NCBI GenBank assembly: GCA_025331435.1
Contig: JAIWNI010000040.1
Coordinates: forward strand, 62,001-126,000
Direction: 5' to 3'
From: Choanephora cucurbitarum
Taxonomy: Eukaryota > Mucoromycota > Mucoromycetes > Mucorales > Choanephoraceae
DNA length: 64,000 nt
Part shown: positions 52,333 to 53,863 of the stretch, piece after piece
Numbering within the stretch: the first letter of the stretch is position 1
Layout: each line of letters opens with the position of its first letter
The notes under the pieces: model-generated
What the model was told of the DNA's origin: nothing
Database searches by the model: none
The model's input: only the letters and a program-made list of their open reading frames with translations
Translations under genes and position numbers: made by a program

Positions 52333-53863
52333 TTATTCAATAGACCACATATTGTCATCTTGAGGCTTTGGTTTTGACTGTGGTTTAACTGAGGTTGTAT
52401 CTAGCAAGGTCTTGCTTGCATTGTGTACGTGTGCATCTGCCATATCATATTCGTCTACACTATCATGATCAATAGCAGTGGAGTGACCATAGACCTTTTG
52501 CTTGTTCTTGCCGAGGGTTTCATCATTGAAGATCAAGATGCCACTTCTGACATTCAAGAGACATCGGAAGGCAACAATCGAAGTAAATAGCACCAGGACA
52601 GCTGCAATGACAGTGGTGAAAATTAAGAATTCACGTGTATGAAGGTATGGATCAGTACCAGTTCTTGGTTGACAGATCAAGACAAGACGGTAGATGAAGT
52701 AAGCAATACAGAGAACACCAGCAAGGATAGAGGCCATTAAGGCATATTTGTTTTCTTTATAGACAGCAACGACAACAAGTGCCAAACCAAGACCACCAAG
52801 GACAAACACAAGCACAGTTTCTGTGACTGTCTGTTGGTAACCCAATCTTTGAGAAGGAATCAATTGAGCGGCAAACGAGAAGACAAAAAAGAAATCAAGT
52901 TTTAAAAGAGTAAGCAATAAACTGGTTGTAATCAAAGCATTACGTACTCTGGTGAAAAAGCGTTAGTTTCTATAAAGGTTATCTACAAGGTAAAGGGTGA
53001 GTTTACCTGATATCAGCAGAAAAATTTCTATAATTATCCCAAGCAAATTGTTTACGAAGTCTCCAGCCAAAATAGGCAAGAGCGATAAAGAAGGCGGGGA
53101 TCAAGGCGATGATGGTGTATTCGATAGGTCGCATCACACTACGGAAGTATGATTTGGCTTCATTCATGCCTACAATGCCAGGTTGCCATTTAGTACTTGA
53201 TGGTAACCATTTGGATGCCTCACTAAAAAAAAAGATGTCAAATTAGTTTGATCGTTTTTCTTATACAGATTGTCTTTAGTACCAAACATTGTCTTCTAGA
53301 ATAACGTGTTGTTGAAGTTGAATGCCTGCATAACTGAAGATGGTTGTGTTAGCTATTGTACTTTCTTCTAAAGAGGTTAAATCTAAAGACACTTACACTA
53401 CAAATAAGTTAGTATCAGATCACTTTGAAAAAAAAATTAATCAAGACTTTACCTACTACTAACAAACCAAATGTGATCAATGCGATTAATTGTGCTATAG
53501 AAACCAACGTGAGTTATTTGCTTATTTCTTAAATGGCTTCAACCATTTACCTGTGTTTCTTTGATACAAAGCGTCAATACAGAGAATGACTTGGAAGACT
53601 TGAGATACAATGAAAAGAGAGTGATAAATAACATCAGACTCGCTCACACCTAACATAAAAGAACTGATTAGATTGGCTCAAAGCTTTCTGATGACAAATC
53701 TACCTTTGCCAAAGGTATCTAGGTTACAGTTGGAGACAAGTTCATGATGGTTCATGATGACCATTCCCTCCAATATACAAATAGTGATACATTCAAAAAC
53801 AACTAAAACAAATGTGCATGCAGCCTCTTTTGTTCGAAATAACGGGCTTTCTTTCAAAGTCAT
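52333..53863 (-). CDS. UPF0658 Golgi-apparatus membrane protein family
   Basis: Seven exons are proposed: 53704-53863, 53551-53649, 53453-53494, a single nucleotide at 53397, 53283-53333, 53007-53222 and 52333-52948. The product has 394 residues. The helices include TFVLVVFECITICILEGMVI, YHSLFIVSQVFQVILCIDAL, LIALITFGLLVVVYAGIQLQ and ILAGVLCIAYFIYRLVLIC. FGWRLRKQFAWDNYRNFSAD and LLTLLKLDFFFVFSFAAQLI match the conserved core of UPF0658 proteins, named from fission-yeast members found in the Golgi. Function is unknown. The C-terminal tail is cytosolic-looking and acidic. Without the one-base exon the frame breaks after exon 3; with it, the protein aligns with the family as I remember it, without gap. 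Alternatives are discussed as a finding. Confidence 0.82.

Follow-up and report, generated by a model that had tools for sequence, protein, structure and literature searches.

A probable one-nucleotide exon in a membrane-protein gene of Choanephora cucurbitarum, with predicted counterparts in two eL24 genes

The stretch of DNA analysed here, called the window below, comprises 64,000 nt of the 33.4-Mb genome of the fungus Choanephora cucurbitarum. On its minus strand, a splice model places a gene of seven exons (Table 1), which encodes a hydrophobic protein of 394 amino acids when the single base at position 53397 is counted as an exon. The published protein of the same contig and gene is EDC96DRAFT_512235 (P0001 in the following). 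An earlier note on this DNA had called it a UPF0658 Golgi membrane protein. No UPF0658-named model was seen in the Pfam results for the window protein and 12 relatives; DUF7789 alone was matched, by 6 of the 12 relatives, and the window protein scored below the DUF7789 cut-off. A search of the PDB with the family profile gave no match.

Table 1. Positions of the features in the window gene and of the scan places that hold the predicted one-nucleotide exons in the eL24 genes
Feature	Coordinates	Strand	Description	Basis
Exon 1	53704..53863	minus	Start codon ATG at 53863; phase-1 end	Splice model; matches published P0001
Exon 2	53551..53649	minus	Phase-1 end	Splice model
Exon 3	53453..53494	minus	AQLIALITFGLLVV and first base of the next codon; phase-1 end	Splice model and family comparison
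Intron A	53398..53452	minus	55 nt; GTAAAG..TACTAAC..TTATTTGTAG; acceptor TAG	Sequence and splice model
Branch-point-like word of intron A	53408..53414	minus	TACTAAC	Sequence
Exon 4, candidate one-nucleotide exon	53397..53397	minus	Coding-strand T; middle base of GTT (Val)	Frame and family conservation
Intron B	53334..53396	minus	63 nt; GTAAGT (GTAAGTGTC)..GCTAAC..CTTCAG	Sequence and splice model
Branch-point-like word of intron B	53348..53353	minus	GCTAAC	Sequence
Exon 5	53283..53333	minus	T|YAGIQLQQHVILEDNV..; needs phase-2 entry	Splice model and family comparison
Exon 6	53007..53222	minus		Splice model
Last exon	52333..52948	minus	Through the stop codon, to 52333	Splice model
eL24 copy L007	G000:C79:282416-282448	minus	Predicted one-nucleotide exon A	
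eL24 copy L075	G000:C24:347556-347590	plus	Predicted one-nucleotide exon A	

The point at issue is the 119-nt gap between exons 3 and 5. A single intron filling the gap would join these exons directly, and this join shifts the frame to a stop, as the earlier note had claimed, and leaves a truncated protein of 112 residues. Its division of the gap into introns A and B around one T was confirmed in every position and motif on the minus strand: two complete adjacent introns, each with a donor, a branch word and an acceptor, stand one base apart. The acceptor of intron A, TTTGTAG, is the first AG past TACTAAC. When the T is included, the split codon becomes GTT (Val), again as had been proposed, the predicted mRNA join reads GTAGTAG-T-TTATGCAGG, the protein reads LITFGLLVVVYAGIQ at the site, and the full frame is restored; when the base is omitted, the reading frame is broken. 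The remaining introns of the gene are 54, 56, 60 and 58 nt long. Boundaries read by eye for 11 other introns, taken from the gene itself, its paralog and a neighbour, give lengths of 48-63 nt, and a single intron of 119-127 nt is far out of range.

Alternative splicings were enumerated for AG acceptors and for GT donors lying between 30 bases upstream and 20 bases downstream. Within these limits there are 14 single-intron in-frame alternatives, rather than the two that the earlier note had counted, and each is longer or shorter than the product with the T. Two-intron solutions number two, 55 nt+T+63 nt and 61 nt+T+57 nt, and they yield an identical mRNA; the former cut has a far better donor (GTAAGT) than the latter (the weak GTCTTT). 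Among the enumerated splicings, only the product with the T, by either cut, keeps the number of residues most common in the family, which supports the one-nucleotide exon. In a shuffle test, the outer ends of the gap were fixed, the rest was dinucleotide-shuffled, and a YAG-N-GT[AG]NG split was sought (n=20000). When both introns had to contain a CTAAC word, a one-nucleotide exon appeared in 0/20000 shuffles; laxer branch words gave 3/20000. Allowing exons of 4 to 19 nt as well, in frame-repairing lengths, gave 1/20000 (strict) and 12/20000 (lax), and a simpler test, which sought YAG-N-GTAAG and required the CTAAC word upstream alone, gave 3/20000.

Two adjacent introns in a fungus also bring to mind the stwintron, a nested twin intron of a kind known in Ascomycota (PMC5639578). 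Here, intron A would have to lie inside a longer intron and split its donor or its acceptor. With A removed before B, GTTAGTA is the one other external donor whose product is open and in frame, at the cost of four residues, and GTAGTGT and GTGTAAG are out of frame. If B were removed first, the in-frame acceptors are TTGTAG, which gives the same product as the one-nucleotide exon, and GCAG. The nested readings are thus out of frame, meet a stop or lose residues, and no interrupted splice signal with a suitable in-frame product was found, so that a stwintron is exceedingly improbable at this site.

Both of the in-frame rivals named in the earlier note have in fact been adopted by annotators, one in P0001 and the other, with 19 residues, in P0003. 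In the first, a single 127-nt intron from 53452 to a GCAG acceptor drops Val-Tyr-Ala and would leave a cDNA without GTAGTTTATGCAGG. This splicing is in frame, the published P0001 reads LVVGIQLQQ, and the same three-residue skip (VVGIQ) occurs in seven relatives. Even so, it is very unlikely to be the true structure. The Tyr is kept in the paralog of the same genome and in intron-free open reading frames (ORFs), where no splice model is involved; 127 nt lies far beyond the 48-63 nt of the other introns; two complete consensus introns would be ignored; and a three-residue skip that recurs at a one-base defect resembles a repair made by a gene finder.

The second rival has one shorter intron with its end at CTTTAG or TGTAAG, and the protein gains 16 or 19 residues in the hydrophobic stretch. 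Intron lengths of 70 and 61 nt would be near normal, and P0003, from another strain, carries the 19-residue version. The inserted peptide is also nearly unchanged between two Choanephora assemblies: the peptide that reading through A and B would add has residue differences at 1/20 positions, against 18/357 outside. This conservation exceeds what is expected of a freely drifting intron and counts against the one-nucleotide exon; slow divergence or chance are the only accounts offered for it. On the other side, the insertions in P0006, P0019, P0033, P0040 and P0047 differ in sequence by eye, and the shorter intron bypasses TTTGTAG, the first AG after the branch word. The insertion would also place polar residues in a hydrophobic stretch, with a 19-residue hydropathy maximum of 1.95 against 2.38 for the CTTTAG version. 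The latter difference is modest, and hydropathy was dropped as decisive evidence for this reason. Taken with these points, an inserted segment has a very small probability, and the T at 53397 remains the preferred reading. Intron B is open in the frame of the downstream exon from 53391 on.

Comparison with relatives bears on the same residue. A search with the predicted protein found 62 proteins, including the published model of the window gene. The paralog in the same genome (contig C113) reads RNVIQMVSLFVFGILMVVYTIIQTIQHISME, equal in length to RNTAQLIALITFGLLVVVYAGIQLQQHVILE in the window. This stretch (CIGILMVVYTIIQTIQ) has the same residue count as the product with the T, and because its GILMVVYTIIQ lies inside one open frame, the critical residue is independent of any splice model. 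In three intron-free ORFs across the junction, a single residue occupies the place: V in P0087, V in P0099 and A in P0100. Enumeration, paralog and intron-free ORFs agree that with the T the protein regains the residue count usual in the family. The contigs that carry P0087 and P0100 are 1619 and 1196 nt long, respectively, and may be transcripts. P0099 is found on contigs of up to 11899 nt, and therefore this relative probably has no intron at the junction; since P0099 appears intron-free there, the two-intron arrangement is not universal.

Residue counts at the junction were taken without the window model, the paralog and P0001, and only from relatives with residues on both sides of each junction; the relatives include paralogs and close species and are not independent. 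Exactly one residue between LLVV and Y, the commonest length, is found in 21/48 relatives, and 27/48 deviate, among them models that skip exon 5, are truncated or start inside it (P0022, P0038, P0041, P0043, P0048 and P0051). At introns 1, 2 and 6, by contrast, deviant models number 5/44, 2/47 and 3/58. At intron 5, which lies in a loop of variable length, 16/51 deviate, but 11 of these equal the window model in length and were taken as true loop-length differences, so that intron 5 is not a clean control. Some of the 21 unremarkable relatives may have a single ordinary intron, as the Absidia paralog P0047 seems to have. Among the 22 proteins matched by the search expression, the single residue is G in 15, V in 5 and A in 2. 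Alignment A2 was picked among models having the Tyr, with the skip models left out, and hence the invariance of Tyr in it is not independent evidence. DNA of the relatives was sought in IMG/VR and GTDB genomes, and none was found there.

Many of the deviant models have a common character. One extra residue is present in eight relatives, and in 8/8 a K or N stands before the Tyr, after G or S, as would be expected if the donor GTAA were retained and a GT four bases further on were used. The read-through ORF P0114, which matches P0005 of Mucor circinelloides at its start, reads VVGKFLLK; by back-translation, its exon 3 should therefore be followed by GTAAR. Inserted residues are carried by P0003, P0006, P0019, P0040 and P0047. 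Skips and one-residue additions form the pattern expected of gene finders that repair a one-base frame defect.

Published proteins of other genera were decoded by back-translation, to see whether a peptide could arise from G|N TAY G[GC]N GGN ATH CAR... read in the shifted frame, with residue sets chosen by the author from the alignment. All codons fit at the expected offset in P0063 of Absidia cylindrospora (10/10), P0066 of Umbelopsis ramanniana (19/19) and P0043 of Cunninghamella blakesleeana (10/10); at the two remaining offsets the fit is limited to one codon. With random peptides, a fit was obtained in 0/200000, 0/50000 and 0/200000 trials for P0063, P0066 and P0043, respectively. It follows that in these three genera the upstream exon should end in phase 1 and the downstream exon begin in phase 2, with one base missing. 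Umbelopsis belongs to a separate order, Umbelopsidales. The truncated models P0064 (Rhizomucor) and P0065 (Cunninghamella echinulata) stop after LLVVV; such ends would plausibly reflect AG|T|GTAA, but were dropped as proof since other DNA would fit them too. The gene is apparently split into two published proteins at the junction in Absidia cylindrospora (P0063/P0056) and Cunninghamella echinulata (P0065/P0050), since both members of each pair lie on contigs of one length, 8096072 and 9094544 nt, respectively.

An assembly error, in which a base is missing at the edge of an exon and only one ordinary intron exists, would produce the same frame defect by a single-base slip. The earlier note had listed a sequencing error at the site among the outcomes that would overturn its reading, and this fear was not borne out, for P0003, from a second assembly, and the relatives repeat the frame relation. 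A translation of the window matches P0003 over 377 residues without a gap and with 19 differences, and keeps its length and frame where intron B passes into exon 5; the defect recurs in the relatives according to the decoding. An error would also reduce the two consensus introns to a coincidence, which the shuffle tests speak against. Its probability is close to nil.

The one-nucleotide exon of the window does not seem to stand alone in the genome. The 33.4 Mb were scanned for CTAAC, 3-25 bases, YAG, one base and GTAAG. This tandem pattern occurs at 16 places (7 + 9), against 28 and 53 for the reversed pattern. As judged from the reading frames, no fewer than three of these places hold a frame-repairing one-nucleotide exon: the T of the window and, in each member of a pair of eL24 genes, an A. 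In the latter, an exon ending ...GTC GAC AGC AG (or GTT GAC TCC AG) and the exon ACT TTC CGT TTC are together one base short. With the A, the protein reads YVRVDSRTFRFINGK (first exon not modelled), matches Pfam PF01246 and aligns with solved eL24 proteins with no gap at the site in the three alignments listed (e.g., VRGDSKIFRFQ in chain 7pzy_7). Other enumerated splicings lose or add residues, and the shuffle test gave 0/20000 and 1/20000. The intron pairs measure 62+63 nt in one copy and 70+78 nt in the other, and align between copies at only 47/79 and 49/84 gapped columns; downstream, 307/330 nt, nearly all exon, are identical. Both eL24 paralogs would therefore need, on their predicted frames, a one-nucleotide exon A between diverged introns.

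The eL24 genes also bear on a -1 ribosomal frameshift, which would have to operate on an mRNA joined directly from exon 3 to exon 5. If the junction T were read twice, the same protein would result. Such a frameshift would be needed separately in two eL24 genes and would leave the two consensus introns unexplained, and inspection by eye found no slippery heptamer at TAGTAGTAG|TTATGC; it hardly enters into consideration.

The other 13 scan places were screened, though not all were excluded singly; the promising pattern matches L042, L046 and L084 are ordinary introns when read by eye. Open-frame screens, one of which covered 85 places, miss genes with short exons, and the window's own case was not recovered in the right frame. 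One screen missed eL24, probably because of the branch-word filter, and eL24 was spotted by eye. Acceptor-N-donor tandems after CTAAC or TTAAC are rarer than reversed ones (7 v 28, 7 v 17, 9 v 53 and 9 v 36), and with CTGAC, CTAAT and TTGAC words the difference is smaller, absent and opposite, respectively (8 v 16, 18 v 17 and 33 v 21). This rarity looks as if near-overlapping splice sites were avoided, the reversed pattern being a rough control only. In 23/30 listed places (L011-L040), TACTAACYGAAGATGACAGAGTAGG is present. Two copies often face opposite ways at a distance of about 4.5-5 kb (e.g., on C3, C54, C68 and C315), and such pairs resemble the ends of a repeated mobile element.

From sequence, frame and fit to the family, we infer that base 53397 is very probably a constitutive one-nucleotide exon flanked by ordinary introns. 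Introns A and B would be of the U2 type and recognized by intron definition, each from the donor, branch word and acceptor that it carries. With complete signals in each short intron, exon length would not be needed. Only one base separates the acceptor of A from the donor of B, and spliceosomes could hardly fit on both, so removal is probably sequential; the introns may leave one after another in either order with the same product. The result would be G|T|T, which codes for a Val within a hydrophobic segment of the protein, a fungal membrane protein of the multi-pass kind. Skipping of the T, or retention of A or B, leads to a premature stop, and thus the accuracy of splicing would set the output of functional protein.

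The arrangement seems to be old, because the same frame defect is found in Absidia, Cunninghamella and Umbelopsis, and mis-annotations in many Mucoromycotina. The one-nucleotide exon of the membrane-protein gene is probably old in Mucoromycotina, as deduced for the relatives from their proteins. We lean towards the view that it dates back at least to the common ancestor of Umbelopsidales and Mucorales, its base having since changed freely among G, T and C (Gly, Val and Ala). In the same view, Mucoromycotina would carry a small conserved set of one-nucleotide exons, including that of eL24, which would have survived a duplication while the flanking introns diverged.

One-nucleotide exons as such are already known in plants and Fusarium, and mitochondrial cases are also among the literature matches listed; the eL24 pair is newly found here. 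The one-nucleotide exon of Fusarium CYP621A is a G (AG|G|GT), found in Fusarium species and supported by 18 RNA reads; its authors claim the first case for a fungal gene and note that published models, with one exception, are wrong there (PMC12940212). Both cases concern a fungal nuclear gene with a mismatch between a phase-1 and a phase-2 exon, in which the exon supplies the middle base of a codon, and the gap is 139 nt in F. graminearum against 119 nt in Choanephora (PMC12940212). Unlike CYP621A, with its G and its RNA reads (PMC12940212), the Choanephora case concerns a predicted exon T in a membrane-protein gene of Mucoromycota. Arabidopsis APC11 likewise has a one-nucleotide exon between two introns that is essential for the frame and was formerly mis-annotated, and that exon is constitutive (PMC4674806). 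It differs in belonging to a plant gene, in its 422-nt gap, and in its support by cDNA and by reporter constructs in which a change of the base was possible (PMC4674806). The one-nucleotide microexons of plant VPS55 and APC11 are also conserved, across land plants, and absent from reference annotations, and VPS55 has transmembrane helices; they are backed by RNA-seq and RT-PCR, and some plants have VPS55 transcripts with and without the exon (PMC8831610). With stwintrons the present case shares two introns at one fungal site and, probably, their successive removal. In stwintrons, however, a splice signal of one intron is split by the other (PMC5639578), whereas the Choanephora introns are each complete. 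Among the literature matches listed for single-nucleotide exons and for fungal micro-exons, including those of Mucorales and Mucor, no one-nucleotide exon of Mucoromycota or of eL24 was found.

One-nucleotide exons represent the lower limit of an exon that the spliceosome can define, and few are in print among the matches listed. On this reading, about half of the compared gene models of this family (27/48) are wrong at the junction, and this recurring pattern of mis-annotation can therefore be used to find more of them. If the present cases are true, their short introns and strong signals would make them tractable systems for asking in which order introns are removed. If the exon is shared by many Mucoromycotina and kept in two eL24 paralogs, one-nucleotide exons would be stable over long times in fungi.
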